Below, piece after piece: positions 17,063-62,379 of a stretch of 64,000 nucleotides of DNA. Position numbers and translations under genes: made by a program. The stretch's first letter is position 1. Each line of letters opens with the position of its first letter. Below the pieces are notes generated by a model. That model had not been told where the DNA came from. It ran no database searches and worked only from the letters and a program-made list of their open reading frames with translations. This DNA comes from Isoperla grammatica. Its lineage: Eukaryota; Arthropoda; Insecta; Plecoptera; Perlodidae. The stretch is taken from assembly GCA_945910005.1 (NCBI GenBank), contig OX246748.1:9153363-9217362 (forward strand), read 5' to 3'.

Positions 17063-17480
17063 AGCCAACGGTTTAGCCGCGGTCGCTTAGCCGGTTCCCA
17101 TATGAACACCGAAGTTAAGCAACTTCGGGCTAGGTCAGGAGGTGGATGGGTGACAACTCACCTCTGAAACACTAGTTACCGTTGGTTAGAGCAGATTGGA
17201 GGGTTCGACAGCTTGTGTAACAGCTTCGTTCTTCTCGTCTACTGCTCGGCAGTCCAGGTTAGTGGAGGAACCTATATGACTGGTCAAAGTTACACCGTCC
17301 TTTCGGATGGGACGTAAAGCCGATGGTCCCCTTGGTACTTTTCGACAGGAGTAGGCTACGTGCCGGTACCAGGCTTCCCCTCCTCCCTCCCTCATTATCA
17401 TTCATCAATCATCACTCATCAGGCTAAAGAGGGCATTGTGCCCTACACTGGCCTTAATTACAATAAAATAAATAAATAAA
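17063..17480 (+). mobile_element. 5S rRNA-headed SINE with Deu-like core
   Basis: The first about 125 bp follow a 5S rRNA from end to end (gccaacgg start, caccgaagttaagcaacttc, gtggatgggtgac, ccgttggtt end). They keep the internal promoter region, but with substitutions in the middle. The central part carries cgtcctttcggatgggacgt followed by aaagccgatggtccc, which I recognise as the Deu-type SINE core. The 3' part runs aggctaaagagggcattgtg and ends in an (AATAA)n-type tail. A functional 5S gene would not have this body. Confidence 0.85.
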
Positions 17481-31200: not shown

Positions 31201-34200
31201 AGTCATTTTTTTGAGCCCCCCCTGAAATGTTAACAAGTCGGCGCCTATGATCCCAACATACCCATGGGTATCTGTTGTTCAACAATAATAATAATTATTA
31301 TTATTGTATACTAGTTACTATTCATAGACTGATTAGTAAAACTCACGTTTGCTAGAAGTTCACTTCATCTTCATCATCGTCGTCTTCATCCTCATCTCCC
31401 GTGTTGTCGGTATTCAAGCACTCTTGTTCCTCGTATTCAGTAGAACAGCCACAAAGCTCGGTGCACCTCATGTTATTTGCTTTGCAGCTGCATCTTGACG
31501 CACACCTTGATTTTAAGCAGTTGCACCTAGCTAGTTGAATGACGGTAGCCGGTGCAGGTTCGAGGGTTATCATGACTGCCACATAGTCGTTGCTCTCAAG
31601 TAGCCATCCGTAGTCTTCGGGTAATAAGTTGATAGGGTTGGCAACCTGGTAATTATGCCACACCCAGCATTGATGGTGAGCACCTAGTATGGCTTGGAGA
31701 TATGCGGCTTTGCTGGGTGGAAGCTTTTGGTGGGTGCTTGGCAAGACTTTTTGTGAAACATGCGCCATCGAAGGTCAGACACTGATCTCAGTTTAGTGAA
31801 TGGACAGTACAGTTTGCAAACAAACTTCTCTAGACCACTTACCACGGAGTCTTTTAGAGCAACAGTTTAACCTAGTTCTTTAAATGCTGAAAATATTTCA
31901 TAGTCGGATTCTTCCACACACCAGCACTTGTGAGGATCTAGCCAAACTTCTTGTCATGCGCATTGACAACAGTTATAGTGAGTTTTCAGAGGTCCACGTG
32001 GTATTTGATAGATATGACATTACTGTTTCATTAAAATCGGCTACTCGAAAGACTTGCAAGGAGGAAAAGCTGCTGTAGCTTGTCGCATTACAGACAACAC
32101 GCCAATCGGGCACTTGAGCATGTCACAACTACTTGGTCACACCAAAACCAAGTATGAGCGGACAGAATATTTTTCACAGAAGATAATTCGAGCCTCACAG
32201 GCCATGGAGCGACAACCAGTTGTCGCATGGAGTAACAAGACTATAAGTACAAAAACACTTCTATCACACTAAAATAGTGAACAGGAAGAAACCGATACTA
32301 AGATGTTGCTTCATGCATTAGATGCGACAAAACGAGGAGCTACTCAAATATCTATTTTTTCCCCAGATACAGATGTCCTTATCCTGGTACTGCGACGTTA
32401 CACCGATCTCTGTAAAAATACTGTGTTCATTACAGGTAAAGGGGAAAATAATAGAAGGATAGCACTTGGGTCACTATACAACACACTTGGGCAAAATCAA
32501 GTTTCAGGACTAACTGGATTTCACGCTTTCAGTGGTTCCGACAACACTGGGGGATTTTCAAGAAAGGGGAAGCTTTCGTGCTGGAAAGCTTTCAGAGAAT
32601 CCGACTATGAAATATTTTCAGCATTTAAAGAACTAGGTTTAACTGTTGCTCTAAAAGACTCCGTGATAAGTGGTCTAGAGAAGTTTGTTTGCAAACTGTA
32701 CTGTCCATTCACTAAACTGAGATCAGTGTCTGACCTTCGATGGCGCATGTTTCACAAAAAGTCTTGCCAAGCACCCACCAAAAGCTTTCACCCAGCAAAG
32801 CTGCATATCTCCAAGCCATACTAGGTGCTCACCATCAATGCTGGGTGTGGCATAATGACCAGGTTGCCAACCCTATATCAACTTATTACCCGAAGACTAC
32901 GGATGGCTACTTGAGAGCAAGGAGTATGTGGCAGTCATGACAACCCTCGAACCTGCACCGGCTGCCGCTGCCGTCATTCAACTAGTTAAATGCAACTGCT
33001 TAAAATCAAGGTGTGCGTCAAGATGCAGCTGCAAAGCAAATAACATGAGGTGCACCGAGCTTTGTGGCTGTTCTACTAAATACGAGGAACAAGAGTGCTT
33101 GAATACCGACAACACGGGAGATGAGGATGAAGACGACGATGATGAAGATGAAGAGAACTTCTAGCAAACGTGAGTTTTACTAATCAGTCTATGAATAGTA
33201 ACTAGTATACAATAATAATAATTATTATTATTGTTAAACAACAGATACCCATGGGTATGTTGGGATGACTACGATTATTAAGTCCTTCACAGTGATACAA
33301 TTGTAACTCCGAAATAGTAATAAATAGATATTACGATGAGGGATGCCCTGCATTTCATATACACATCTAATTATTATTATTTGTTAGCAATTTCTCCCTT
33401 AAATATTACATGATTACCCTATTGGTACATATCAATCGATTTGTATTTAAATTCTCTATAATATTGTCGTCTTAATATTTTCTGTGATATGAACCGTTCA
33501 AAAGTTATTAATGAAAAAGTGTATGACGTCACGACGCTCCTGGCGCCCTCTGCAGCGTGCCACGATGTGCCAAGTAGATGCAAAATACTCAAATAGTATT
33601 TCGTAATAGAATTGTTCCCTTGACATTTTCTGTGACATGAACCGTTCAAACGTTATTAATTAAAACGTGTTTATGACGTCATGACGCTCCTGGCGCCCTC
33701 TTCAGCGTGCCAGGATGTGCCAGGTAGGTGCAAAATACTCGTATAGTATTTTATAGAAGAATTGTACCCTACATATTTTCTGTGACATGAACCGTTCAAA
33801 CGATATTAGTTCCAACGTGTATATGACGTCACGACGCTCCTGGCGCCCTCTGCAGCCCGCCAGAAGGTGGCAGATTGGTTATAAATTCTCATCTAGTATG
33901 ACATCATAAAATTGTCCTCCTGATATTTTCTGTGACATAAACCGTTCAAAAGTAATTAATTAAAACGTGTCTATGACGTCACGACGCTCCTGGCGCCCTC
34001 TGCAGCGTGCCAGGATCTGCCAGGTAGGTGCAAAATACTCGTATGGTATGCCGTAACAGAATACCGTTTACCGCAATACTCTTTCACGAAAGGCGCACGA
34101 GAACTTAAATGTTACCTTTTGCTCCTCTACTATTGGTTTAAACACCAACTAACAACAAATGGTAGATGTCGTTTGACATCAGCATACCTGAAAAGTGGCC

Positions 34201-41200: not shown

Positions 41201-42364
41201 ATGGGAGGGAGGACGCTGTTGATTGGAGTTGTTCTCCTCGGTGCCGTGTGGTCGTACCCCATCCCCACATACGACTCTCGCCTCTCTTCGCTGGAGCTGG
41301 CAATCATCAAGTGCATCGTAGAAACGGTACCAGGAGTCACAAAAGGCGGAGGAGGTACCTACGACTGGTCCGTCGTCCAGTCAAGATCGAAGGAGCTACA
41401 GGGAGCGGAGATAGAGGTCGTTCAGGTGGGACAACGGGATCCAGACTTCACCGCACGATCAGGGGGAAGTTACCCAAGCGACTGGAATATTGTTCGTTCT
41501 GTATCGAGTCAACTTGGGGCCAGAGACGACGGCAACTTCCAAGAGAATGGGAGAGCAGGATTATCTGATGATTGGGCGATTATGAAGTCCATATCGACTG
41601 AACTTCATTTAGACGTGGAACAAGGACCGGGAGACGCCAGTAATGAACCTGCGTACCAACCTCCTACGGGACAGGAGGGTAGAGGCCGTTCAGAGGGCAA
41701 CAATGCGGTAGTTTTTCCAAACAACCAACCAATTTCGTCAGTAGAAGGAAATTCTGGTGATTATCCTATTGATATTCGCTCATTTTCAAGTGATCTTCCA
41801 TCAGCGAATGGAATGGAAATTCAACAGAGTTACTCTCAATCAGAGGAATACATGGGAATAGGTGGCACTGGTGAAAACGATCAACGATCGTTTGGAAACG
41901 GTGGAACATCTCAAGAAGTGACAGGAGTGCAGAATAATGAAGGAGGTGCAATTGGATGGAGTATTGTTAGGTCCATATCAAGCGAGCAGGAACCAATAAG
42001 TGAAGATATGTCTTCCTCGGGGAGTCAGCAGACCATATCGACATCAGGAACCCAGGCAGAGAAAGGAGATACAGATAGCTACAATGTAGTGCAACCCATC
42101 TCAACTGAACTCCAACCTGCTGATAATGAAGCTGGAGAAATTCCAGCAAGTCTGACTGAATTATTTCCACCCCCACTGGAACAACCGGAAGATTCTTGGA
42201 ATAGTCAACCATCGGAAGGCGCTCAACCTTCTGAAATTGACTCTTCAGAAACAGGTCATTCGTCCACTGTGGAGGGACAAGAACCTTGTGAAACGGGGCA
42301 CAAGCGAGTTAAAAACGTGTGCAGAAAGGTTTACTCGTTTCAGTTGAAGAGCCATCTCAAATAA
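41201..42364 (+). CDS. Secreted repeat protein, unknown family
   Basis: 387 residues from the ATG at 41201. I chose this start because residues 1-18 form a signal peptide (MGGRTLLIGVVLLGAVWS) and a possible acceptor (tctgttccag) lies 2 bases upstream; the frame is open further upstream without an ATG. The mature chain is acidic and Ser/Gly/Glu-rich. It carries six spaced copies of a [DG]-W-x-[IV]-[VM]-x-S-x-S-[ST]-[EQ]-L-like motif near residues 54, 93, 123, 188, 251 and 292. The C-terminus has a Cys pair, C363 and C374, in PCETGHKRVKNVCRKV. There is no known domain, and I do not recognise the function. A polyadenylation signal follows at 42402. Confidence 0.82.
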   Translation: MGGRTLLIGVVLLGAVWSYPIPTYDSRLSSLELAIIKCIVETVPGVTKGGGGTYDWSVVQSRSKELQGAEIEVVQVGQRDPDFTARSGGSYPSDWNIVRSVSSQLGARDDGNFQENGRAGLSDDWAIMKSISTELHLDVEQGPGDASNEPAYQPPTGQEGRGRSEGNNAVVFPNNQPISSVEGNSGDYPIDIRSFSSDLPSANGMEIQQSYSQSEEYMGIGGTGENDQRSFGNGGTSQEVTGVQNNEGGAIGWSIVRSISSEQEPISEDMSSSGSQQTISTSGTQAEKGDTDSYNVVQPISTELQPADNEAGEIPASLTELFPPPLEQPEDSWNSQPSEGAQPSEIDSSETGHSSTVEGQEPCETGHKRVKNVCRKVYSFQLKSHLK

Positions 42365-45486: not shown

Positions 45487-45665
45487 TCAGTGTTGAGACC
45501 TGTAAATTTCGTTATTACGTGGTGGTTCAGTAAACGGATCGGGTTGATCAGGCCTGTCTTCTATGCACCATTTAAGAGGATTTGGTAATCCCAATTTTTC
45601 AAGGATAGTTCTGGACGAGCAAGTAAACAAAATTGATATATAGCCCAGTTGGTCCATAAGCGCAC
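45487..45665 (-). CDS. DRPxQxDP family member A, exon 3
   Basis: 179 bp with the acceptor ttaatttcag and stop TGA at 45487-45489. It encodes 58 residues including LEKLGLPNPLKWC and EDRPDQPDPFTEPP. Confidence 0.78.
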
Positions 45666-48600
45666 CTGAAATTAAATAAAAAATGTTGTTATGGATGTTG
45701 CGACAGAGAAAATAGATTATATATCTTTGTATTTGAATATGAGTTTTTCACCTCCTGGGTCCGGTGTATAATTTGTTCCAGTGATAGTTTGTAATGTTCA
45801 GTAAGCTACCTGGAGTAGTGGGCTTTCAGACCGATGAGGATTATGCATTCGACTCTACAGCGGAAGACTACAATTACTAATCTTTAGAAGAACGTCGGGA
45901 ATATATAGATTTTCATTGAATTGGCGTGCGTAAAAGAGGCACGTAAAGGATGTGAGTTTGGGATGAGACTATTTATACGTTGTGAATAGCCTGGCAATGA
46001 CCTTGTAGATAACTCAGTTAAAAGCTTAACTGAGTTGTAGGAACGTAGTTAGGCCGTTAACTGCAGTTAAGTTAACTGAGTTCCGTTCAAATTGCATTGG
46101 TAACTGGAGTTAACGTGTTAACCACAGTTAAGAACTGTAATGTGAACAGGGTATAAGTGAAATTAGTCTGATTTGAAAATTATCTCTTGCACATACAATT
46201 AATTCCAAGGCTTTAGTCTTAGAACTAGGGTGCAGATGTTTTAGGATTGACAAAGCTTGAGCTCCATCCGCTAGTTATGTGACCACCGCTCAGCATAACA
46301 AATATGACTGATTTTAAATAATATAATATGAAATGAATAAATATGAAATGATTGTCATTATGTCACGGGGGTAGAGGGTTGACACATAGCGATGCAGCAG
46401 GAGAGCGTCAAAATACGAAAATCTCAAGTCTACAATACAATTAAATCCCCTCCAATGTAATTTATTTTCTCTCTCCACAACTAAGTCCCCCCCCCCCCCC
46501 TCTCCCCGCCGCACCACCCTAGAAATCATGTTTGAGTAGTCTACGTTGTTTATTTATTTATTAATTATTCCCATTCATTACAAAAGTGAATAGGGGTTGG
46601 CAGAAAAGAGCACAGCTCCAAACATACAGAGTGACTGCCAACCCATACTAAAAGTACTTAAAATCTAAATATATTAATGCACAAATAAATTACAAAAATA
46701 TATAAAAGAACCTGGAAATGATAATGATAATAATACAACCACCCAAAAATAATTAAATATACAAAATACAAAATACAAAATTAAAAACAAAAAACATGAA
46801 CACATAATATGAATGAAAATATAATTATAAGACAGAACTGTTAAATATGAAGTAAAAAAAGAATAAAAAAATGAAAATTTACAAAACAATGTTTAAAAAA
46901 TTCTCCGTTAAAGACGCTTTGAAGACATCTAATGAGCGTGCCATCCTGATCTTCAGTGGAAGAGAATTCCACGATTGATAAGCCCAATAATAGAACCCTC
47001 TCTGGTAGACTGCTGTTCTGGCAAAAGGTGGCCTGAACAATAGACCCCTACCAAATTGGGCACTACGATTATTACATTACAAATAATCAAATGCAGAGAA
47101 GTAGAGACCTGAAGATACTTACTTACATCCAAGCAGCTGACCACGACCAACTGTAAAAGAAATCGATGCTGAACTGTAATAAGACATTACACTTATTATT
47201 ATTAATATTATTATTAATTGTTTATTCTTGTCACCAAAAAATGAAAATGCTAAGAGATATACTTACAAAAGCTGGGTATACCTCTACGTCAAAAACCGCA
47301 GAAAGTTTTCATGTTTTAATTAAATCTCAAGAATGCTACTCGAAATCGAAAATCTGAGTCACAAGTTTTGGTAAGCCCTACCGACTGAATGTGATGTTAT
47401 AATTATAAGCGATAGTTATTTTGATTATTAAATCGATTATTGGTAAATCAAATTAAAAACAAGTAAAACCATCCTGATTATAATTTTACAGCATTTAGTA
47501 TTTAGGGCTTACCAAACCACAGTCCGCTGTTGAATCAGATTTTCGATTTCGAAGTCTATTCTTGAGATAAAATTTGAAAATGAAATTTTCGTGCTGTTTT
47601 TGACGTAGAAGTAGGCCTACCCTTCGCTCTTAAAGCCAGATAGGTAAAAGAAATTTAAATTTCAAAGTCTCCTGACAAGATACTAGTCGAAGCTAACATT
47701 TTCCAAAAACACTTGAAATCCTAGGAAATCTTGTGCCGCAAAAGCCTTGCTAAAAACTTAACAATACCAACATGTCAACTAAACTAAACTAAACTAACAT
47801 GTCACACGTCAAAAGTTATGTGCTTCTTGCACAGGGAAGGGAAGTGGCTTACTGGACAGTCTTAAGGGCGGTCGGCAGGCTGTTCCATGGATGCACAACA
47901 CGGAAAGCACGCGGGGAAAGCACTTGTATAAACGTGTTTGAAAACACGCAGGTGGGACGGGCCATGTAGTTTTATTCTACGTGATAGCTAGCTATAACAA
48001 AGATTACAAACTTTGTAATCTTTGGTTATACTAGCCAAGCCGTATCGAGGTTAAAAGTTGCAATGCACTCATGCGGTAGAAATGCGAACTATAGAATGGA
48101 GTCGAAATACCAGCGCCCTCTGTGTATGATTTTAAATGTCGAATATAGATCTTTTTCAGAATAGGGTACGCACAACTGACGTAACAGCCGAACTACAACA
48201 ATGGAATAAATGAATTGAACTGGTGGACAAACAACAAGCTGTCAAAGTAGTATTTTTGCAAATAATGAGGATAAACAATTAGTTGTAACGATAGTTACTG
48301 CTCACCAGTTAAAATTTATGTTCAGTAATGGAAAGCAACTATCTGAAAGTTTGTACACGTTCTGTACGTTTGTTTTTTCCAACTTCAGAACTTCATTTTT
48401 TTTTTTACAGCTTGTTTGTCCATCGGTTCAATTCATTTGTTTCATTGTTGTGTTTTGGTGTAGCGCGTAAAAATATAATTAATCACGGCCTTCTAGATCT
48501 TCAATGACACCAATGCACAACAGAGAAAAATACACTTTAACATAACATTTGAAAACAAGTTGTTTTCAAGGACCCAGAGCTAGAAGTATTCACGGCCCAC

Positions 48601-50743
48601 TATAGAACAATTCTGAAAATCGTCTAATACAAAGAGTCGACGTCATAGACTATGTAAAAGTGAATTGACGTGTGTGATAAATACCAGACTGCATACACGG
48701 CTCATAGCACCGAGGTCAGAACTTTCAACCCTCTACTTTCTACCCCCACTCTAAGGCCCTAAACGGTAGGGGTACGGTAGGGAGGGCAGCACTTTAATTG
48801 AACGCACTTCGAAGCGATCACGCACTTTGATATCATTACCTGTTTTCATCCTTTTCGGATCAGTTTGATTTATTTTTATTGTTTTTTGTTTTTTTACTTC
48901 ACAAATTGAATAATGTGGTTCAAATCATGCATTATTATTTATATATTTAATGTCTATTCTATTCAGTTACTGATTTACAAAGGAGGACCTTAAAATATAA
49001 AACTAGACTATGCAAACAATACCATAAATAACAATAACAACAAAAAACAAAACAAACTACTGTACTAGGTATTTAAAAAAAATCAAGAACAAGAAAATAT
49101 AATTACAAAATTAAATTAAATAAAATCAAGTGGAAATGCTATATATTAAATAATAAAAATAAAAGTATGTAAATAAGAAAGAACGCGAAGAAAAAAATGT
49201 GGAAACGATATATATATATATATAAAAGTGAAAGAAGAAGTAAAAGAAAAAAAGGAAAGAAAAAAAATCGAAAAAGAAAAGAAACTCAAACGGTAAACGG
49301 TTGGTCAAATTGACGTTCCACATCAACATTGTGCATGCGGGTTGGCCAACCGAATGAAACTATTTGGAACCGCTGATTGGCTCCCAATCACTCATCTATG
49401 ACATCAGTCAGCATTCACAAGGTTGCTGTGGAACCAATTTATGGCAGACGAAGACGGTTTGTTTGTGAGTATACAACGCACCTATCGTGAAACATAAGAC
49501 ACCCATAGATCCGTATTCATAATGGTCCCCTATTTCTAAGGGCGCCCGTTGTTGCCATTTACCAATTTCTTGCGTTATTTCCCATTTAAAAACATTCTTA
49601 GCAACATCGGGCACCCCTAGGGATAGGCAACGACTTTGATCGACGTGTATTGTGTTCTAATCATGAAAGGAAGATTTTTTGAAATCTTCAAATGAAACCC
49701 GCAACGATCAGATAGGAGTGTCCAGCTTATGATTGCGGTCTCCTCTTGAACGTGTTTGGTCCCGTGAGATGTAATGATCTAGAGAAAATTGATTTGACCC
49801 GAAACTAAATTGTAGCATTAGGTTTTATGGGTATCATTTTCTTCGTAGAAATACGCGTTATAACATATAAAAAATACGCTTAAATCCGTATGGGTTGGGG
49901 TTACGAAAATTAGTTTTAAGGGGACACCATAAAATAAAAAAATGAAAATTGAACAAATATTAACCGATCAACCTGAAATTGTATACACACATACATCAAC
50001 ACTTAGTATTACGTGAGTATTACAAGTATTACGTGGTAATTTTTTAAAAATTATTCGCCACTTTTTTTTACCATTTTTGAGCGCATTCTAACTGTTTAGT
50101 ACAATTTTACCGGACACTGAATGGATTTTTTCTTTCTCTTTTTCTTTAATAATGTCCACCCTCATCTTCATGTTCATTCTTTGGGCAATACATTAAACAT
50201 TTAACATTTTCGGTGTTCATGTTTGCATAATACTAATTTGAAGCTGTTATGGAAGCCTTTTATGTAAATGCCAGTCAGTGTTGTGGTATTAATATTAATT
50301 ATTGACAACGTAATTTATGCTTGGTATTTATAAACGTTCCAAAATAACGAGTGCCCAGGTATCTCATTGCGGTCCAGTGAAGCCATCTCAAAAAAACAGT
50401 CCACAATGAATTAAAATTATCACTCCTACTTCTACGGTATTTACGGTATTGTATATTTTTATTATTTTTTATTATTTTTATTTACGGTATATTTACTTAA
50501 TACGGTATATTTACTTAATTAGTTGCAGCTTTTTCTACGAATGTCTACCATAAAAACTAACCGGGTTGATGGATATTTGTCCTAAAACCATACGACAAAT
50601 TTACATCTACAAGTAGACAAGTTTTTACAGTAGTAACTCGACGAAAATTCCAAATAATAATATCACTAAATAATAAGACTGAATGAAAAAAAAACAAATT
50701 TACCCACCTGGGTAATTATTAGCAAAGCGATCAGGAGCCGCAT
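45487..50743 (-). CDS. Small secreted peptide, DRPxQxDP family, member A (3 exons)
   Basis: Three exons: 50708-50743 (MRLLIALLIITQ), 47123-47150 (LVVVSCLDV plus one base) and 45487-45665. Phases are 0 then 1, and all introns are GT-AG. The 80-residue product starts with a hydrophobic signal peptide encoded by exons 1-2. The mature part contains a Cys, then GLPNPLKWCIEDRPDQPDPF, and a short polar tail. Exon 2 uses the distal of two overlapping donors (GTAA|GTAAGT); the match in length and phase with member B supports this. Function unknown; two conserved Cys could pair. A variant polyadenylation signal (ATTAAA) lies about 100 bp beyond the stop. Confidence 0.72.
45990..46160. repeat. GTTAACT-rich segment with perfect hairpin
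   Basis: aactcagttaa and ttaactgagtt form a perfect 11-bp stem with a 4-base loop at 46011-46036. The next 110 bp repeat gttaact/agttaac words six or more times. It lies in intron 2 of member A. Confidence 0.7.
46487..46502. repeat. Poly-C tract
   Basis: A run of about 14 C in intron 2 of member A. Confidence 0.9.
46545..47095. repeat. Probable dispersed repeat, LINE 3'-UTR-like
   Basis: A-rich sequence is followed by gaagacatctaatgagcgtg and gtggaagagaattccacgat, and then cctctctggtagactgctgt. The phrasing resembles 3' regions of non-LTR elements that I have seen in invertebrates; the assignment is weak. Confidence 0.35.
47123..47150 (-). CDS. DRPxQxDP family member A, exon 2
   Basis: A 28-bp micro-exon with the acceptor ttcttttacag. 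The donor is at 47122 (GTAAGT); an alternative donor four bases upstream would break the frame into exon 3. Confidence 0.65.
47274..47632. mobile_element. Fold-back MITE
   Basis: Inverted arms of about 115 bp. The left arm carries ctacgtcaaaaaccgcag, atctcaagaat and cgaaatcgaaaatctga; the right arm carries their reverse complements. Both arms meet at ggtaagcccta / tagggcttacc around an AT-rich loop. Outer ends are gggtatacct / gtaggcctaccc. Confidence 0.75.
47989..48032. repeat. Hairpin, about 18-bp stem
   Basis: tataacaaagattacaaa is followed directly by its near-perfect reverse complement, ctttgtaatctttggttata. Confidence 0.8.
48164..48468 (-). mobile_element. MITE family Q, copy 2 (inverted relative to copy 1)
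   Basis: The reverse complement of 38743-39050 over its whole length, with differences of roughly one in ten bases by eye. It lies in intron 1 of member A. Confidence 0.82.
48930..49260 (-). repeat. Repeat X, copy 3 (reverse orientation)
   Basis: In reverse it matches 36780-37270 and 39490-39720 (gatttacaaaggaggacctt, aaacaaactactg, atcaagaacaagaaaatata). Confidence 0.75.
49524..49632. mobile_element. Small MITE, family P, copy 2
   Basis: ggtcccctatttctaagggc at the left and ggcacccctagggataggca at the right form inverted ends. The interior matches 20779-20897. Confidence 0.65.
49640..50707. other. Intron or intergenic AT-rich DNA
   Basis: Part of intron 1 of member A. Near 50440-50520 the words tttacggtat and tacttaa recur three times. 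Nothing else is seen. Confidence 0.4.
50708..50743 (-). CDS. DRPxQxDP family member A, exon 1
   Basis: ATG at 50741-50743, 12 codons, then CAG|GTGGGT. Aligns with exon 1 of members B and C (hydrophobic, ending TQ or AQ). Confidence 0.7.
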
Positions 50744-51107
50744 GGCTAATAATAGACTTTCCCCTTGGTTTTTAATTCACCTTTTAGCAAACCCAAAGTT
50801 CTGGGTGTGCTTGTAGTGGCCGAACGGTTCTTCAACTACTGTTTTATAGATACTAATTATAACATAGTACAAACACGTGTAAAACTAATCCTTATACATT
50901 TCTAAATTAGTACCGGTAGTTAAAATCTTATTGCCACATAAATAACATACCTGTAAATAATTGAATACAATCGCTTATAGTTACATTGTTCCATTGTTGA
51001 ATTAATTTCTAGCGCTTGCATATAATGAACTAATCACACAATAAAATTCTAGATTTATTACAGTCCCCTGGATCGTTTATTATTACTTGAAACATCACAT
51101 ATGAGTC

Positions 51108-51190
51108 CGGGGTCAAATTTTGCCCTGGGTGACGCTGCCAATCGTAAGAGGGGACTCTCACATTTTCCCTGTCCACCAATTTACTCATTT
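51108..51190 (+). repeat. Decayed SINE-like fragment (family M)
   Basis: gtccggggtcaaattttgcc, then gacgctgccaatcgtaagag. Confidence 0.55.
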
Positions 51191-51224
51191 AAATCTTATT
51201 CTTCTTCCTTAATAATGACAATAA

Positions 51225-51365
51225 TAATGACAATAATAATAAAAATAATAAAAGTATTTTTTGTAGAAATACCTGTTATCTAGGGTGTACACAATGTTAT
51301 TCCTGATGTGCCCTCTAGGTGACTAACTAGGTATGTTAGGGAGTTTGGATCAGAGTAGGTTTAAG
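51225..51365 (-). mobile_element. SINE family T, copy 3 (3' part only)
   Basis: Matches the left part of 37725-37840 (gtagaaatacctgttatcta, cctgatgtgccctctaggtg, actaactagg) with an (AAT)n tail. The tRNA head is missing. Confidence 0.7.
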
Positions 51366-51575
51366 AACCATATGGTTTAGTTGGATCCAACTTCCAAACC
51401 ATATCTAGCAACTTGTGGTAGGGTAGATCCCAGTTTGAGGTATAGCATGATTCCAAAGTAATCAATCAACCAAATATATATTGAATAATATTTATTTTTA
51501 CAGGTTATTTAAATTCCGACATATAGACTGCATTGTAATAATATCCCTATGCCAAGTTTTACGGTTGGTCTCCTA

Positions 51576-51760
51576 CTAAGGTTTGGGCGTAGTATAGTAA
51601 TGGTTTGAAATGGGTGGAGAAGTCCAAGGATCAGCCTGTTCCGGCCGGTCTTCCACACACCAATGTAACAAATTAGGAAGTCCAAACGTATCAAATAATA
51701 TTATCTTCGTCTGGCACACAATCACATCTTTAACTGGCATCACAGTGTTATATATAGAAT
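51576..51760 (-). CDS. DRPxQxDP family member B, exon 3
   Basis: 185 bp with the acceptor tttaatttcag and stop TAG at 51576-51578. It encodes 60 residues including IVCQ and WCVEDRPEQADPW. Confidence 0.8.
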
Positions 51761-53766
51761 CTGAAATTAAATATACAACTGTAAAATTGCTGGCATATAA
51801 TATAAATCAATATATGTTGGTATTCTCGGGTGATGGTTAGTAACGCCTTAGGGCCCAGGATAGAATATGGGCCAACTTGACTATGCCAGTCGTAAGATGC
51901 GAAAACAGGAGGTAGTTTCAAAGTCATTTTTATTTTAAAAATCAACTAAGTTCATCTAATTCTTCCGTACAGTCCGTACGTGGCTATTTGACTCAGCTGT
52001 CGAGTACGTCATAAGGCAGTAATTGTAATATAATAATCAAAGTTATAATAATTATAATAATAAAGGTAATTGATAACAAAAGTTAATAATAACTTAAAAA
52101 TAAAAAACAGTTAATTACTAACTAAAATATTTGTCAAAATAACTTTAAATATGCACAATTTTTTAGTGATTAGACATTCTAAATGACCTGTGTATTAGAT
52201 GTTAGGTAAATATGTGTACACAATTGCTTTTATACCCATTTTCAAAAATGTTTAAGTTTTCAACAGTTTAACCTTTCTAAATGCATCACTATCTGAGACC
52301 AAAAATAATTAATGACATTCCTTTCAAAATAAGAAGTGCAACCAGTGCATTTGTTTAAAAGAAAAGTTAAAATGAGTGGCTACTTCTTCGAGATTTTAAT
52401 AATTTAAATTGTTTGTAGTCATTTGTAATAAGGAATCGAACTGTTCGTGCGTATAATGCTAGAATATTGTTTCGCCTCTTAATTATATTGATGATAAACA
52501 CATTGTCATGTTTGTTGTGTTATTTAATTTTTTCTCTAGAGTTATAACTACGTAGTAAGCCATATTTTATTTATCCTCCACTAAATTTATTATTACTATT
52601 GTTATTATTATAATAAGCCGTGTTATTATGCTGTGTGATATTATTTGTTCCGCTGACTATCTGTAATTGGCAGATATAAACATAACTACAAGAAACACAA
52701 ACTTGTTCGAGATAATCACGTTTATATGTCAGTGACTATACACTTTGAAGACTACTCATTTGCACGTTAACTGTTGATTTGTTGTCTCCCCCCCCCCCCC
52801 CCCAACGAATTATTATACCACGGAATAGAAAATGTTTCCAAATTAATGTAGTAGCCTTAGCTAGAATTAATCACCGTTCTACAAATCTTCAAAGGTAACA
52901 ATGCGCAACAATGAAATAATATACCTTGACGTTTCGTTTGGAAAATAGTTTTTATTGTGGTTCATTGTTGACTGTTGTAATTGAAGTTAGAGCACCATGA
53001 ATATTCTATCTAAGGGTCCTAGATCAATTTCAAAAACGGTCTATTGAATACGTGATCAAACCCCAAAGAATGATATGAAATACAACTTATGTTGTGTTGG
53101 AACTCACCGAATATGGTCCCATACACTTCGAGCAGCTGAAAAAAGAAATGGGTGCAAAACTGTTGAAACGTGTTTGTAAATTCGGTAAAAAGAGTAGCCT
53201 CGTCTTACTGCAAAATCTAAGCCAAATTAACTTTTTTTAGTTCTATTTTGAGACCGCTATGTAAAATTGAAAAAAGTACCAATAAGAGTGCTGTGCTTAA
53301 GAAAGAACTGTAAAGTGGACTTACAAAATTCTTAATATTACAATCATTACTGTCCTCATTGGGAAAGTCAATTAAAGAATTTTTAATTTATGAGTTTCCC
53401 TATGACAACTGCAATGATTTTAATATATTTTCGAAACCACATCACCCGATGATTTTTCACGTTTTCAATATTGTGTAGCGTTTCCAAAAAATCAGTTAAA
53501 AAGAAATAAAATTAAAAAAGCCCCCGCGGTGGCTAGGGACGTGGGTTCGAATACCGTCTAAGGCGCGTTGTTCTTTGTAATTGTCCTTCAACTTCATATT
53601 TTACTGTTTACCATCTCGAATACCATGACTGCAATAACAGAGACGTAAAGCAACAAGAATCACATTCATCTTCATCATCATTACCAAATTAAAGAAATAA
53701 AGGAAAATACAAAATTTACTTACTTACCTGAGCAATCATCAGCACAGCAACGATCAGGATTCTCAT
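51576..53766 (-). CDS. Small secreted peptide, DRPxQxDP family, member B (3 exons)
   Basis: Exons are 53728-53766 (MRILIVAVLMIAQ), 53108-53135 (LLEVYGTIF plus one base) and 51576-51760. Phases are 0 then 1, with good GT-AG sites (gtaagt, gtgagt, tttcag). The 83-residue product has a signal peptide over exons 1-2. The mature part has C-x17/18-C and FGLPNLLHWCVEDRPEQADP, then a Pro/Tyr-rich tail. AATAAA lies about 80 bp beyond the stop (51491-51496). Paralogous to members A and C over all three exons. No family known to me matches, and function is unknown. Confidence 0.78.
51848..52050 (+). repeat. Decayed SINE-like repeat (family M)
   Basis: Starts gggcccaggatagaatatgg, continues ctatgccagtcgtaagatgc and ends gctgtcgagtacgtcataag. 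It lies in intron 2 of member B. Confidence 0.6.
52787..52803. repeat. Poly-C tract
   Basis: A run of about 16 C in intron 2 of member B. Confidence 0.9.
53108..53135 (-). CDS. DRPxQxDP family member B, exon 2
   Basis: A 28-bp micro-exon, acceptor tttcttttttcag and donor G|GTGAGT. The same length and phase as exon 2 of member A. Confidence 0.75.
53519..53695 (+). mobile_element. tRNA-headed SINE fragment
   Basis: gcccccgcggtggctaggga and cgtgggttcgaataccg (B box) are followed by a body with accatgactgcaataacaga and an (ATC)-rich tail. The head is internally shortened. Confidence 0.6.
53728..53766 (-). CDS. DRPxQxDP family member B, exon 1
   Basis: 13 codons from the ATG at 53764-53766, then CAG|GTAAGT. 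The frame is open further upstream, but this ATG gives a compact signal peptide that aligns with members A and C. Confidence 0.75.
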
Positions 53767-54109
53767 ATCTAACAACGTATGTTTTTCTTTTGTGTTTAAA
53801 TAAAGCTGAATTATATTATTTTTAAATAGTAGGGAGTTTAACGTTGTCTTATTCCTGCACAAACTCAAAATTATTTGTGTGCTTTTGTTATCCGTATTGT
53901 ACGGAACTAGGCCTACTGTTTTATAGCTATACTTGTTGACGAATGCAAACACGAATATGAAATGCTACATTAAACGTGCAAATTAAGCTAGCCAATTAAA
54001 ATTGCAATTGCCGATTATATGATACGCCCATAAACATTTCATCACGCGTGCTTTTTAGGCACGAGTAATTTTAAACGTGTAGATACAAGTAGAATTATTT
54101 CCCCCTAGT

Positions 54110-54265
54110 CTTGTCCCTTGGTGATCAATCATTCGTTAGAGACGATGAAATGTGGTTCTTTCCTTTCTCTTTCACATTTCCTCATATGTGCCCCTTTCCT
54201 CTATTCCCCCCGACGAAAATGACCGTATTGTCGGGTAAGTCGCTGCACACTATATAATCGAATAA
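54110..54265 (+). repeat. Decayed SINE-like repeat (family M)
   Basis: Contains gagacgatgaaatgtggttc, catatgtgcccctttcctct and ttgtcgggtaagtcgctgca. Confidence 0.5.
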
Positions 54266-54619
54266 TCACGCAGTCTTCCTCGATGTGGCGCCCGTGTAAG
54301 GTAACTGCCTGTCATAAAAGGTGACAAAGGTCAAGTCAAATTATCGAATTAAATAGTTATTTAGTATGTAATTTTAATAATAACATTCAAAATACAAAAA
54401 TACAACCATACATTACACGACTTTGCTAGAAATATTATAACTATACACATTGTTGAAAAACACAATTAAAACTATAATTTATATACATATTAGTAATTAA
54501 TATACAGTGCATTTGGCTAAAATATGGATCATACACTAAAAAATCAAAACATATGGTACCAATTGGGATTTGTTCAAATAGACCTTTTGTGCTTCCCTGA
54601 AAAAATATAATACCTAATT

Positions 54620-55120
54620 TTACCACTGGTGTTCAATCTTTTAACTTCAATGGTATTCATAGGTATTTGGTCAAAACTTATTTTGATTTAGAACTGAGCG
54701 TTAATGGTTTCTTCAACATACCATTGGTGTTCAATGGGTTTTCTTCAACGGTATGTAGTCAATGGTTATTTTTATCATGACAAAAAATGTTTTCTTTTTC
54801 AGTGCCATTCAGGCCATTGAAATTAATGTCTTTATTAATTTCAAACGTGAAATATAAATGGTTTTATTATGGTTTACCAAGAGTTGTATTTAGTTAACCA
54901 GTGTATTTTTTTCAGTGATTTTTTGTCAATAGCTTTTCCCAATGATTTTTTATTGTTGCTCAAAGGTTTTTGCCCAATAATTTTGTCCGAAGTTCTTTTT
55001 TCAGAACACCATTTGCCAAAACCATTGGGTAAAAAAGCATTGCATTTGCCCAATGGTTTGTTCGTCTCAATTGTTTGGTCTGAAAACACCATTGGGGAAA
55101 AACCATTGTTTGTTTGAATA
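54620..55120. repeat. Region with recurrent CCATTGG/CCAATGG words
   Basis: More than a dozen short near-repeats (accattggtgttcaatgg, aaaaccattgggta, gcccaatggttt, aacaccattgggg) occur in both orientations without fixed period. It lies directly 3' of member C. Confidence 0.5.
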
Positions 55121-55132
55121 AGATTTGAATGG

Positions 55133-55350
55133 TTATATTAATGAGGGTATAAAACTAAATCCTCTCCCTTGACCAGTCTTCGTTTCGTATTCAGTTGGGA
55201 CTATGGCGGGCGTAGTGAACGGGTCAGGTTGTATTGGTCTCTCTTCAACACACAACTGCAATACATTTGGAACCTTCAATTTTTCAAAGATTTCTTTACT
55301 CTGGCAGTGAACAAAATTATTAACCATTTTTAAGGGGCCAAAGATTAAAT
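55133..55350 (-). CDS. DRPxQxDP family member C, exon 3
   Basis: 218 bp, acceptor caaatttcag and stop TAA at 55133-55135. It encodes 71 residues. Confidence 0.8.
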
Positions 55351-57476
55351 CTGAAATTTGAAAAAAACGCAATTATTGGTGTTGTGAAACATATATATAA
55401 ATACATTATTACCTGTTTCCATATTGGGTTCAAGGGTATACAAAAAAAAACTTATAAGGGTTTGGGGAATCATTTTTTCCAGAGAAATTATGTTGATTGT
55501 TGGGGGTGGTTGTGGTTTGGATGTTGTTGGTAAGCAAAGAAATGAGGTCCTGTCAAATCCCATTGCCACCATTTTACCACTTTAGATATAATTCTTCATC
55601 ATTTTCCCCATCTTGCCCCGGGGAAGAACTTGGCAAAGACGTGACTCTGCCTATTTTAAAAAACAACGAAATGAGTCTAATCATTTTTTTTCCTCTCCTC
55701 AACTTCTGAAAATGGTAGATCTTATTACTCCCACTTGTCCCTTTGAATCTCATCTCCCCGAGAAAAGGTGCCCTAGCTGTCAAGTACGTCCTTAGACACT
55801 AAATAATCTTAATTCCGAGAAAATAGAACAAAACGTGCAAAGTAAACCAAAGAACATAAAAATAAAATATAAAGACCAATACACCGCAAACAGCTATATA
55901 ATACATTATATTATATAATATGTATTTTTATATTCTTTGCTTGAATTGATGGTTTGTATTGCCTATATTATCTCTTGTTTTGTTTATCAATTTCCATGAG
56001 CATGTCCATGAAAATGTGGCCGAAACTATGGAATTTAAATACAAATAATTACATGGATTAAACCGGAAAAACATATATATGATACACGTACAATCATAAC
56101 CGATATACAACAATTAACCAAACACCATATAAATACATATAGGACATTTTGCAACCAAAATAATTGAAAAAAATCATGTATAGGAAGTACAGTACATCAA
56201 ATTCAATAGTAGTGATATCTTGTAAAGTGCTTACCTACGGTAGTCAAGCATCCCGTAATTAGCATCTGTAAACAGAAACAATGCATATCTTGACAGACAT
56301 TTTATTTCACTTCACGATGATCGCCGTGTATGACCTAGCTGTGAGTACGTCGTTAAACACCAATCACGTCACGTCTAGGACCGGAGTAGATTTGGCCCCG
56401 GGGTTTACCTGACCCAATCGTAAGACGCGAGAAAAATGAATTCCCCTTCCTCTTTCCTCACCCAACTCCGTTGAATATTAGTTCTACTAAGACTACTCAT
56501 GTCTAACCACTTATCCCTTTCCCCCAATCAACCACGACGTCTTATAACTTCAGTTGTCGAGTACGCGTTTCCATTATATACCCTGGGTAGAATTAGGCCT
56601 AAGTTGACACTGCCAGTCGTAAGAGACGAACAAGTGAGATATTTCCCCTACCCCTTTTCTCCCATGTACCCCTTTAAATCTAATTTGCTTCTTCTAATTC
56701 TATTTTTTCTTTAATCTTCTTCCACGATGCCTAATGAGTTACGACCTAACGATTATGTCGTTAAACAGCAAATAATTTCACAATTTTCTCCACCCCCAAA
56801 CTTTAACCTACCCCATGTCTGCTACCTTATCGTGGTGGACAGGTTTGTGTGGTTTGGCGATCCCCAGAGCTATCCCGGCGGAAGCATATGCTTCTGGTAT
56901 AGGGCCACCCCAGCCAGATAGATCGAGGTGGAAGCCAGACGAAAGGCAGTCCACGACCTCCCCTTAACGTCCTACTTGTGCATTTCCTCCAAACATCCCT
57001 CGACATCATACGATCACAGTTGTCGAGTACGTCGTTAAACAACAAATAATTAAATCAAACTTTAATACCGTTCTTCCTAACTTTACTTGCCCTCCAATGA
57101 GCTACCCCTATAACACTGCCGATGTTTGATGGATCTGATTCGGCAAACGTCATATATATATATATATATATATATATATCTGGCTCCTGTTTCCAACTTA
57201 AGTTAGGTCAGGGGGTGGCTATAGCCACCAGGATTCTAGGGCACTTCAAGAGCTCCTAACACCGGCTTGCAATAATAAAAATTAAATATTTTTATATCTA
57301 TATTTTAAATAAATTATAACTTATACCGGAAGAGAATAGTAAATTTCCGGATAGCTCTGCCAGTCGTCAGGGCGACAAAAGGGCTCATCAAAGAATCTAA
57401 TAATTTATAAAACACCAAATTATGAAATTTCACTTACCTGAGTTATTAACAACACCGCTATCTTTCTGACGCACAT
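55133..57476 (-). CDS. Small secreted peptide, DRPxQxDP family, member C (3 exons)
   Basis: Exons are 57438-57476 (MCVRKIAVLLITQ), 56235-56265 (MLITGCLTTV plus one base) and 55133-55350. Phases are 0 then 1; exon 2 is 31 bp, one codon longer than in A and B. The 95-residue product has a signal peptide, VHCQ, VPNVLQLCVEERPIQPDPF, and a longer basic, Gly-rich tail (YETKTGQGRGF). Good splice sites occur throughout (gtaagt, gtaagc, tttcag). Paralogous to members A and B; function unknown. Confidence 0.78.
55612..55806 (+). repeat. Decayed SINE-like repeat (family M)
   Basis: Head cttgccccggggaagaactt, then cgtgactctgcctatttt and tail agctgtcaagtacgtcctta. It lies in intron 2 of member C. Confidence 0.6.
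56235..56265 (-). CDS. DRPxQxDP family member C, exon 2
   Basis: A 31-bp micro-exon, acceptor ctgtttacag and donor G|GTAAGC. Confidence 0.72.
56335..57160 (+). repeat. Cluster of four decayed SINE-like copies
   Basis: A tail fragment (56335-56365), two family M copies (56375-56580 and 56580-56775) and one second-head copy at 56815-57050. The last has gtctgctaccttatcgtggt, gcttctggtatagggccacc and tcgagtacgtcgttaaacaa. Head-to-tail clustering suggests insertion into existing tails. It lies in intron 1 of member C. Confidence 0.65.
57151..57179. repeat. (TA)n microsatellite
   Basis: About 14 TA units at the end of a decayed SINE. Confidence 0.92.
57438..57476 (-). CDS. DRPxQxDP family member C, exon 1
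   Basis: 13 codons from the ATG at 57474-57476, then CAG|GTAAGT. Confidence 0.75.
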
Positions 57477-58440: not shown

Positions 58441-58665
58441 TCAACAGTTTAGTTTCAAGTATGGCTCGCAGTGAGGTCGTCGAGTGGACACTTCGGCGGG
58501 CGTCGCGACGCTTGGCTGCTCATCGGGTGTGGAGGTTGCGTCGCGCCCCAGTCTGTTGCGCGGAGCCTCTTCCACGGTGTACGAGCCTGTCAGACGGACC
58601 ACGGTCGCCTCCAGGCCTAGCAGCGCAATCAGCAGGATCATGAAGCAACGCCAAGCTCCGGCCAT
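58441..58665 (-). CDS. Small secreted peptide with amplified signal-peptide segment
   Basis: 74 residues from the ATG at 58663-58665. Residues 1 to about 20 (MAGAWRCFMILLIALLGLEA) are a clear signal peptide. The mature part is VVRLTGSYTVEEAPRNRLGR, a Thr/Ser/Pro-rich stretch and a Cys-containing end (HCEPYLKLNC). An acceptor-like ctctgtttcag lies 2 bases before the ATG, so 5' non-coding exons may lie upstream. No known family is recognised. A dibasic-like site (RLGRD) could be processed, which is inference. The 5' 90 bp are the source of the tandem array upstream. Confidence 0.65.
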   Translation of the reverse strand: MAGAWRCFMILLIALLGLEATVVRLTGSYTVEEAPRNRLGRDATSTPDEQPSVATPAEVSTRRPHCEPYLKLNC

Positions 58666-61600
58666 GGCTGAAACAGAGGTCTAAGATGACTCTGCTGGTC
58701 GTAGCGACTCCACGGTGTACGAGCCTGTCAGACGGACCACGACCGCCTCTAGGCCTACCAGCGCAATCAGCAGGATCATGAAGCAACGCCAAGCTCCGGC
58801 CATGGCTGAAACAGAGGTCTAAGATGACTCTGCTGGTCGTAGCGACTCCACGGTGTACGAGCCTGTCAGACTAGGCCTACCAGCGCAATCAGCAGGATCA
58901 TGAAGCAACGCCAAGCTCCGGCCATGGCTGAAACAGGTTACGTTATGATCAGGTCTAGGGTGAGTCTGCTGGTCGTAGCGACTCCACGGTGTACGAGCCT
59001 GTCAGACGGACCACGACCGCCTCCAGACCCACCAGCGTAATCAGCAGGATCATGAAGCAACGCCAAGCTCCGGCCATGGCTGAAACAGAGGTCTAAGATG
59101 ACTCTGCTGGTCGTAGCGACTCCACGGTGTACGAGCCTGTCAGACGGACCACGACCGCCTCTAGACCTACCAACGCAATCAGCAGGATCATGAAGCAACG
59201 CCAAGCTCCGGCCATGGCTGAAACAGGTTGCGTTATGATCAGGTCTAGGGTGACTCTGCTGGTCGTAGCGACTCCACGGTGTACGAGCCTGTCAGACGGA
59301 CCACGACCGCCTCTAGGTCTACCAGCGCAATCAGCAGGATCATGAAGCAACGCCAAGCTCCGGCCATGGCTGAAACAGAGGTCTAAGATGACTCTGCTGG
59401 TCGTAGCGACTCCACGGTGTACGAGCCTGTCAGACGGACCACGACCGCCTCCAGACCCACCAGCGTAATCAGCAGGATCATGAAGCAACGCCATGCTCCG
59501 GCCATGGCTGAAACAGAGGTCTAAGATGACTCTGCTGGTCGTAGCGACTCCACGGTGTACGAGCCTGTCAGACGGACCACAGCCGCCTCTAGGCCTACCA
59601 GCGCAATCAGCAGGATCATGAAGCAACGCCAAGCTCCGGCCATGGCTGAAACAGAGGTCTAAGATGACTCTGCTGGTCGTAGCGACTCCACGGTGTACGA
59701 GCCTGTCAGACGGACCACAGCCGCCTCTAGGCCTACCAGCGCAATCAGCAGGATCATGAAGCAACGCCAAGCTCCGGCCATGGCTGGAACAGAGGTCTAG
59801 GGTGACTCTGCTGGTCGTAGCGACTCCACGGTGTACGAGCCTGTCAGACGGACCACAGCCGCCTCCAGACCCACCAGCGCAATCAGCAGGATCATGAAGC
59901 AACGCCAAGCTCCGGCCATGGCTGAAACAGGTTGCGTTATGATCAGGTCTAGGATGACTCTGCTGGTCGTAGCGACTCCACGGTGTACGAGCCTGTCAGA
60001 CGGACCACAGCCGCCTCCAGACCCACCAGCGCAATCAGCAGGATCATGAAGCAACGCCAAGCTCCGGCCATGGCTGAAACAGGTTGCGTTATGGTCAGGT
60101 CTAGGGTGACTCTGCTGGTCGTAGCGACTCCACGGTGTACGAGCCTGTCAGACGGACCACAGCCGCCTCTAGGCCTACCAGCGCAATCAGCAGGATCATG
60201 AAGCAACGCCAAGCTCCGGCCATGGCTGAAACAGAGGTCTAAGATGACTCTGCTGGTCGTAGCGACTCCACGGTGTACGAGCCTGTCATACGGACCACAG
60301 CCGCCTCCAGACCCACCAGCGCAACCAGCAGGATCATGAAGCAACGCCAAGCTCCGGCCATGGCTGAAACAGTGTCGTTATGATCAGGTCTAGGGTGACT
60401 CTGCTGGTCGTAGCGACTTCACGGTGTACGAGCCTGTCAGACGGACCACGGTCGCCTCCAGACCCACCAGCGCAATCAGCAGGATCATGAAGCAACGCCA
60501 AGCTCCGGCCATGGCTGAAACAGTGTCGTTATGATCAGGTCTAGGGTGACTCTGCTGGTCGTAGCGACTCCACGGTGTACGAGCCTGTCAGACGGACCAC
60601 GGCCGCATCTAGGCCCACCAGCGCAATCAGCAGGATCATGAAGCAACGCCAAGCTCCGGCCATGGCTGAAACAGGTTGCGTTATGATCAGGTCTAGGGTG
60701 ACTCTGCTGGTCGTAGCGACTCCACGGTGTACGAGCCTGTCAGACGGACCACGACCGCCTCTAGGCCCACCAGCGCAATCAGCAGGATCATGAAGCAACG
60801 CCAAGCTCCGGCCATGGCTGAAACAGGTTGCGTTATGATCAGGTCTAGGGTGACTCTGCTGGTCGTAGCGACTTCACGGTGTACGAGCCTGTCAGACGGA
60901 CCACGGTCGCCTCCAGGCCTACCAGCGCAATCAGCAAGATCATGAAGCAACGCCAAGCTCTGGCCATGGCTGAAACAGGTTGCGTTATGATCAGGTCTAA
61001 GATATGACTCTGCTGGTCGTAGCGACTCCACGGTGTACGAGCCTGTCAGACGGACCACGACCACCTACAGGCCTACCAGCGCAATCAGCAGGATCATGAA
61101 GCAACGCCAAGCTCCGGCCATGGCTGAAACAGGTTGCGTTATGATTAGGTCTAGGGTGACTCTGCTGGTCGTAGCGACTTCACGGTGTACGAGCCTGTCA
61201 GACGGACCACGACCACCTACAGGCCTACCAGCGCAATCAGCAGGATCATGAAGCAACGCCAAGCTCCGGCCATGGCTGAAACAGTGTCGTTATGATCAGG
61301 TCTAGGGTGACTCTGCTGGTCGTAGCGACTCCACGGTGTACGAGCCTGTCAGACGGACCACGACCGCCTCCAGGCCTACCGGCGCAATCAGCAGGATCAT
61401 GAAGCAACGCCAAGCTCCGGCCATGGCTGAAACAGTGGTCTAACATGACTCTGCTGGTCGTAGCGACTCCACGGTGTACGAGCCTGTCAGACGGACCACG
61501 GTCGCCTCTAGGCCTACCAGCGCAATCAGCAGGATCATGAAGCAACGCCAAGCTCCGGCCATGGCTGAAACAGTGGTCTAACATGACTCTGCTGGTCGTA

Positions 61601-62335
61601 GCGACTCCACGGTGTACGAGCCTTTCAGACGGACCACGACCGCCTACAGGCCTACCAGCGCAATCAGCAGGATCATGAAGCAACGTCAAGCTCTGGCCAT
61701 GGCTGAAACAGGTTGCGTTATGATCAGGTCTAGGATGACTCTGCTGGTCGTAGCGACCCCACGGTGTACGAGCCTGTCAGACGGACCACGACCGCCTCTA
61801 GGTCTACCAGCGCAATCAGCAGGATCATGAAGCAACGCCAAGCTCCGGCCATGGCTGAAACAGAGGTCTAGGATGACTCTGCTGGTCGTAGCGACTCCAC
61901 GGTGTACGAGCCTGTCAGACGGACCACAGCCGCCTCTAGGCCTACCAACGCAATCAGCAGGATCATGAAGCAACGCCAAGCTCCGGCCATGGCTGGAACA
62001 GGTTACGTTATGATCAGGTCTAGGGTGACTCTGCTGGTCGTAGCGACTCCACGGTGTACGAGCCTGTCAGACGGACCACAGCCGCCTCTAGGCCTACCAA
62101 CGCAATCAGCAGGATCATGAAGCAATGCCAAGCTCCGGCCATGGCTGAAACAGGTTACGTTATGATCAGGTCTAGGGTGACTCTGCTGGTCGTAGCGACT
62201 CCACGGTGTACGAGCCTGTCAGACGGACCACGACCACCTACAGGCCTACCAGCGCAATCAGCAGGATCATGAAGCAACGCCAAGCTCCGGCCATGGCTGA
62301 AACAGAGGTCTAAGATGACTCTGCTGGTCGTAGCG
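58666..62335 (-). repeat. Minisatellite of about 25 extra signal-peptide segments fused to a SINE fragment
   Basis: The word gccatggctg marks about 26 starts from 58662 to 62292, spaced mostly 138 or about 152 bp. Each unit has, on the minus strand, an acceptor-like tgtttcag, then ATG and about 31 codons matching the 58441 gene (MAGAWRCFMILLIALVGLEA, VVVRLTGSYTVE). It then runs into SINE-derived tcgctacgaccagcagagtc and a stop. The 152-bp type carries an extra gttgcgttatgat insert. Most copies keep the frame open. Confidence 0.93.
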
Positions 62336-62379
62336 AAACTCTGTTCCACATCAAGATACAACCTTGTTCAAGGGGATTA

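Follow-up and report, generated by a model that had tools for sequence, protein, structure and literature searches.

A tandem trio of three-exon genes in Isoperla grammatica predicted to encode small secreted peptides with a conserved core

Results

Three neighboring genes share one exon plan

A window of 64,000 nucleotides from the genome of Isoperla grammatica (Plecoptera, Perlodidae; assembly GCA_945910005.1, contig OX246748.1, positions 9,153,363 to 9,217,362 of the forward strand) was analyzed, and all coordinates given below are positions within this window. Three genes, hereafter A, B and C, lie in a row on its minus strand between positions 45487 and 57476. Each was modelled from a short first coding exon, a micro-exon and a longer third exon that encodes the predicted mature peptide, as follows.

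50708..50743, minus strand: gene A exon 1, 36 bp coding, predicted to encode the first 12 residues of the signal peptide, with a phase 0 donor
47123..47150, minus strand: gene A exon 2, 28 bp micro-exon, predicted end of the signal peptide, with a phase 1 donor
45487..45665, minus strand: gene A exon 3, 179 bp including the stop, predicted mature peptide
53728..53766, minus strand: gene B exon 1, 39 bp coding, placed by exon model, splice scores and start-exon scan
53108..53135, minus strand: gene B exon 2, 28 bp micro-exon, placed by exon model and splice scores
51576..51760, minus strand: gene B exon 3, 185 bp including the stop, predicted mature peptide
57438..57476, minus strand: gene C exon 1, 39 bp coding, placed by exon model, splice scores and start-exon scan
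56235..56265, minus strand: gene C exon 2, 31 bp micro-exon, placed by exon model and splice scores
55133..55350, minus strand: gene C exon 3, 218 bp including the stop, predicted mature peptide with a longer tail

Sizes of exon 1 refer to its coding part, the non-coding start not being counted. When the exons are joined, the reading frame stays open and gives a protein of 80 residues in A, 83 in B and 95 in C; the exon 3 frames are open for 76–86 codons. The introns, of 3557 and 1457 bp in A, 592 and 1347 bp in B, and 1172 and 884 bp in C, are all six of the GT-AG type, and their phases are 0 and then 1 in the three genes. The third exons carry the signature PNxLxxC[IV]E[DE]RPxQxDP[FW]T, in the form PNPLKWCIEDRPDQPDPFT in A, PNLLHWCVEDRPEQADPWT in B and PNVLQLCVEERPIQPDPFT in C, and an additional cysteine is found 17 (A, C) or 18 (B) residues ahead of the one in the signature. 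Polyadenylation-like hexamers are present 3' of all three stops; no null was calculated for them and they are not counted as support.

A first-pass annotation, made from the letters of this DNA and a list of its open reading frames (ORFs), had described a minus-strand trio at 45487–57476 with exons of 36–39, 28–31 and 179–218 bp, intron phases 0 and 1, and the above signature with a second cysteine 17–18 residues earlier, and in all these points it was found to be accurate. Two of its statements needed qualification. Genes "built from micro-exons" is apt for exon 2, which at 28–31 bp is a true micro-exon, but is overstated, since there is one such exon per gene. Likewise, the genes had been said to be missed altogether by ORF-based annotation: an ORF list at a threshold of 120 residues shows none of them, but a low-threshold list shows part of each gene, namely exon 3. 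The gene anatomy as modelled is very likely to be correct.

The copies are paralogous and their modelled exons rank above other candidates

Each of the three predicted proteins was compared with the 64-kb window by tblastn, a check that the first-pass annotation had put forward. The exon 3 of the other two genes was found in six of six directions, so that the matches were mutual, with E-values from 1.2e-12 to 2.3e-10 (2.7e-12 and 1.2e-12 for A–B, 6.4e-11 and 6.5e-11 for A–C, 1.5e-10 and 2.3e-10 for B–C). At the DNA level the likeness of exon 3 has almost gone, and among the three pairs it is visible for A–C alone (blastn E 0.62). A profile of the three peptides, which was run unfiltered against six-frame stretches of at least 12 residues and finds the three by construction, did not reveal a fourth copy in the window, the next score having an E-value of 1.3.

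The placement of the small exons was assessed in three ways. Between the first and third exons of each gene, every open stretch of 19–46 bp lying between AG and GT and leading from phase 0 to phase 1 was taken as a candidate for exon 2; the one in the model ranked first of 74 candidates in A, 33 in B and 30 in C. Its margin was 11.1 bits in B, 10.5 in C and 2.1 in A, where the runner-up is a longer form sharing the same donor. The 12 splice sites, scored with matrices whose values are approximate, all fall within the top 3% of minus-strand GT or AG sites. Finally, both strands were scanned for start exons, defined as ATG plus 9–21 codons with a mean hydropathy above 1 and a final G before a GTRRGT-like donor. 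Ten places were returned, comprising the three modelled first exons and seven positions within a minisatellite (58.6–62.3 kb). When the minisatellite was left aside, the scan gave three places on the minus strand and none on the plus strand, compared with a mean of 0.25 and a maximum of 2 in 40 second-order Markov resamples of the minus strand from which the minisatellite had been removed; since the criteria were chosen after the exons had been seen, this contrast is somewhat flattered. As the earlier annotation asserted, frames, phases and splice sites agree across the trio. Tandem paralogues with a common exon plan, as found here, are characteristic of lineage-restricted secreted-peptide families.

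Third codon positions are the most changed in the core of exon 3

Divergence of exon 3 was analyzed in the three pairwise comparisons, which are not independent of one another. In the core, stretching from the first cysteine to DP[FW]T (31 codons per pair), 17–19 residues are identical, 8–10 of them with silent changes, and differences at codon positions 1/2/3 amount to 10/6/20 for A–B, 11/8/16 for A–C and 7/7/19 for B–C. Nonsynonymous divergence (dN) in the core is 0.30–0.37, whereas synonymous divergence (dS) is 2.3 for A–C and not computable for A–B and B–C. The excess of changes at third positions, with a dN that is low relative to dS, argues for old duplications and a maintained core. For the whole of exon 3, dN and dS are 0.68 and 2.31 for A–B and 0.53 and 3.55 for B–C, the A–C pair not being computable; a dN/dS near 1, which the first-pass annotation had named as a refuting outcome, was thus not observed for these two pairs. 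Identity in the tail is lower, with 4/13, 2/13 and 5/14 residues in the three pairs.

Upstream regions and introns retain little common sequence

A promoter-like motif is shared by two of the genes upstream of exon 1.

50836..50852, minus strand: TATA promoter-like motif of gene A, 16 of 17 bases identical to the gene B motif
53913..53929, minus strand: TATA promoter-like motif of gene B, 16 of 17 bases identical to the gene A motif

In 200 resamplings of paired 300-base upstream regions the score of this match (TATCTATAAAACAGTAG / TAGCTATAAAACAGTAG, common to A and B) was never reached, and the distance from TATAAA to the ATG is 105 bases in A and 159 in B. The same two genes have similar intron ends, with 19/23 bases alike for intron 1 and 13/13 for intron 2. 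The top DNA matches between gene segments are repeats within introns, with E-values of 7e-7 for A–B and 5e-6 for B–C, because of which the surroundings cannot be called wholly unrelated. The earlier view that the surrounding DNA is unrelated needs correction: genes A and B have the TATA motif and a weak likeness of intron ends in common, and interspersed repeats recur.

Combined, the protein-level homology, the splice architecture, a promoter motif common to two of the genes and the preservation of the core while silent sites became saturated give good support to a tandemly duplicated family whose small products are probably secreted and have a conserved core.

The predicted peptides are acidic and carry two cysteines

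In the three proteins a hydrophobic stretch spans the junction of exons 1 and 2 and extends to VSC, VYG or TGC, where the −3,−1 rule fits as judged by inspection and hydropathy. The codon split by the phase 1 intron is the fourth past the likely cleavage site in A and B and the fifth in C; a phase 1 intron shortly after the cleavage site is common in genes for secreted proteins. Secretion of the peptides appears quite probable. The predicted mature peptides, of 62, 64 and 76 residues, have isoelectric points (pI) of 4.79, 4.91 and 5.71 and two cysteines each, and none of the three mature sequences contains a dibasic pair or an N-glycosylation motif. Classical neuropeptide precursors have dibasic processing sites, and such sites were found in 0 of 3 mature sequences. 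The acidic character of the mature peptides and their lack of dibasic sites are arguments against a cationic antimicrobial as well as against a multi-peptide precursor of the classical type.

Database searches

No match to any of the three peptides was found among 24736 Pfam models at E up to 1, and a PDB search with their joint profile was empty up to an E-value of 10; peptide B by itself gave one antibody chain at E 1.6, which is not convincing. In a collection of 5.8 billion proteins no relative was found for peptide B alone, and the three-peptide alignment gave 9 candidates, none at E up to 10, under a filter of three shared exact 5-residue words by which distant relatives are missed. The contig collections that were scanned are viral, prokaryotic and plasmid, not animal. 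Pattern matches in viral (36) and prokaryotic (39) contigs yielded no confirmed case, and a query with exon 3 of gene B yielded two weak plasmid matches at E 6 and no relative. Peptide C was used minus its last five residues in the Pfam, alignment-based protein, viral and prokaryote searches. As a control, residues 350–850 of a reverse transcriptase ORF from the window were searched for, and 7146 proteins at E up to 1e-20 were obtained among 7968 scored. Since named proteins of Mycteria, Branchiostoma, Pinctada, Caretta and Spirometra are among the matches listed, the protein database does hold animal proteins, although conservation of the control protein is much stronger than that of the peptides.

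The designation "unrecognised family" agrees with the lack of any relative in Pfam, PDB, the 5.8 billion proteins and the viral and prokaryote contigs, but these searches are weak for animal sequences and the claim is unproven. It is in this light that the foremost rival explanation is to be weighed, namely that a known animal family of secreted peptides includes the trio as a divergent branch, its other members having escaped the exact-word protein search. The word requirement and the failure of all 9 alignment candidates are in its favor, but Pfam and the PDB profile search were empty even at their permissive cut-offs, and animal proteins were there to be found, with the proviso just given about the control. 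We regard this explanation as unlikely, though deserving of attention.

Comparison with known gene families

Schistosome micro-exon genes contain many short exons with lengths divisible by three. The trio resembles them in that genes whose products are predicted to be secreted contain very short exons, but differs in that there is a single micro-exon per gene, of 28, 28 and 31 bp, lengths that are not divisible by three. Conotoxin mature peptides are cysteine-rich, which the present peptides, with two cysteines each, are not. In a study of Conus, two introns and three exons with GT-AG borders are described for eight of nine conotoxin superfamilies studied, with all introns longer than 3 kb and exons roughly matching signal, pro-region and mature sequence (PMC3862624). 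The likeness to the trio lies in the three exons and GT-AG borders and, for the I2 superfamily, in the phases 0 and 1 (PMC3862624); by contrast, our model shows no such division among its exons, the signal peptide being encoded jointly by exons 1 and 2, and the introns measure 0.6–3.6 kb. Myticalins, antimicrobial peptides of mussels, also form a multigene family of small secreted peptides whose genes have three exons, the second intron being in phase 1, but they are cationic and have a dibasic cleavage site, their exon 1 is entirely 5' untranslated region, and signal and mature sequence reside on one exon (PMC5577615); the trio has the acidic pI values given above and dibasic pairs in 0 of 3 sequences. 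All mollusc mantle secretomes covered in another survey are reported to include lineage-restricted, rapidly evolving secreted proteins, many of which are repetitive and of low complexity, whereas the trio peptides are neither (PMC4897951). The trio departs from the named families compared and probably belongs to the general kind of orphan tandem secreted-peptide families.

Toxin and antimicrobial families usually show tandem duplication and fast-changing mature parts, a combination that would suit peptides made as toxins or antimicrobials in epithelium or a venom gland. Conotoxin genes, mostly of three exons and with phases 0 and 1 in the I2 superfamily, offer a further parallel (PMC3862624). 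But the present peptides are acidic, with two cysteines and no dibasic processing site, no pro-region was recognised in the model, and it is in the middle of the mature sequence that conservation is seen. None of the analyses made here speaks for a toxin, an antimicrobial or a pheromone, and we consider a toxin or antimicrobial role improbable.

Other features of the window

The minisatellite encountered in the start-exon scan extends from 58571 to 62336 and consists of 26 copies of a 138–152 bp unit. A pattern search of its minus strand returned 25 starts, each with TT[TC]CAGCC immediately 5' of the ATG and nearly all signal-peptide-like (MAGAWRCFMILLIALVGLEA...). Of these, 19 are 40-residue ORFs and five are shorter, while the last (58665) is the only one that leads to a secreted-looking protein, of 74 residues; the array is, oddly, a gene start repeated about 26 times. 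On the plus strand, an ORF at 41201–42364 (ATG at 41201, 387 residues) has a signal-peptide-like start and, as seen by eye, a loosely repeated WSIVRSIS[ST]EL-like motif; a Pfam search with it was empty up to an E-value of 1.

Non-long-terminal-repeat retrotransposon ORFs with endonuclease and reverse transcriptase (Pfam) occupy 21500–27300, and their sense strand is strongly purine-biased (GC skew 0.53 and AT skew 0.23–0.25 over 20–28 kb). The segment at 28223–34102 is bounded by inverted terminal repeats, which measure about 848 bases, are 97.8% identical, contain four 150-base subrepeats each and enclose two ORFs without a Pfam match above the cut-off; within it lies an inner inverted pair (31250–31912 and 32596–33266, 96.6%). 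A satellite array at 11091–13443 is made of about 36 copies of a 66-base unit, and a 5S ribosomal RNA-like sequence at 17064–17187 (full model length, 47.5 bits) is perhaps a 5S-derived repeat.

Discussion

The explanation that best accounts for these results, with a probability of about 0.6, is that genes A, B and C are three tandem paralogues of a lineage-limited family of secreted acidic peptides of about 62–76 residues. Anatomy, paralogy and the conserved core are seen in the sequence; from there we infer transcription, secretion, a disulfide, a binding role and a tissue. The trio has the look of yet another fast-evolving secreted-peptide family confined to one lineage, of which there are many. 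Orphan secreted families are common (see PMC4897951), hence the existence of one here is a modest surprise.

Two further alternatives bear on this explanation. The trio could be a decaying family, once functional secreted peptides of which one or more are now unexpressed relics; lack of the A/B promoter motif in gene C and poor conservation of the first 14 exon 3 codons and of the tail could be read in this way, but three open frames and good splice sites have survived despite saturated silent sites, and decay appears to us a rather remote prospect. That exon 3 is part of a mobile element, or was spread by one, with a coincidental splice pattern, is highly improbable: mobile elements and repeats abound in the window, with interspersed repeats inside the introns, but exon 3 has no long flanking DNA match (the A–C match lies within the coding part and that of A–B is just 13 bases at the acceptor), and the three copies in the window have one orientation and fitting exons 1 and 2 upstream of each.

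If the three genes are indeed tandem paralogues for secreted peptides, each would have a promoter of its own, TATA-like in A and B, and a transcript in which three exons are joined. The first two of these would provide a signal peptide of 18–19 residues directing the product to the secretory path, and exon 3 nearly the whole of the acidic mature peptide, which would be secreted in one piece. The two cysteines could form one disulfide stapling a loop or helix pair, so as to present the PNxLxxC[VI]E[DE]RPxQxDP[FW]T face to an extracellular partner, while the variable N-terminal part and the tail may confer specificity on each copy. A TATA promoter and tandem copies suit abundant, tissue-specific secretion, and the most likely setting would be an epithelium or gland producing matrix, mucus or reproductive fluid. 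Both the binding face and the epithelial or glandular source are put forward tentatively. A more specific proposal, that this is a new single-disulfide acidic peptide family with a fold of its own, whose PNxLxxC[VI]E[DE]RP face would engage a single conserved partner, be it a receptor, a gamete coat or a matrix component, and whose diverging ends would give each copy its specificity, is speculative and rather doubtful.

Several observations weigh against this account. The gene model derives from the genomic sequence, and the three putative signal peptides were judged from hydropathy and the −3,−1 rule. Taken over whole segments, the motif match between A and B has by itself a blastn E of 0.20, and their similar intron ends have an E of 0.68 each, so that any weight the intron ends carry comes from their position. 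Within 300 bases upstream of gene C there is no TATA-like hexamer, and this region shows no similarity to that of A or of B: 196 resamples out of 200 reached the score of the comparison with A, and 147 that of the comparison with B. In exon 3, saturation of dS means that constraint is bounded just roughly, and the 14 codons before the first cysteine share 0, 1 and 2 residues in the three pairs; the third-position excess is not clear there, and for A–B a dN of 2.80 exceeds a dS of 1.00, on sites too few and too saturated to be trusted. AlphaFold2, run on the three-row alignment, gave poor models (mean predicted local distance difference test scores of 50.1 and 46.9) that lend no support to a stapled fold; as models of this quality, they speak neither for nor against a fold.

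Comparison of neighbors within one window was thus able to recover genes with an internal exon of 28–31 bp and tiny first coding exons, and genes of this type may have been overlooked by gene predictors. If the peptides are made, they would represent one more family, with a short conserved face, among the poorly charted secreted peptides of animals.

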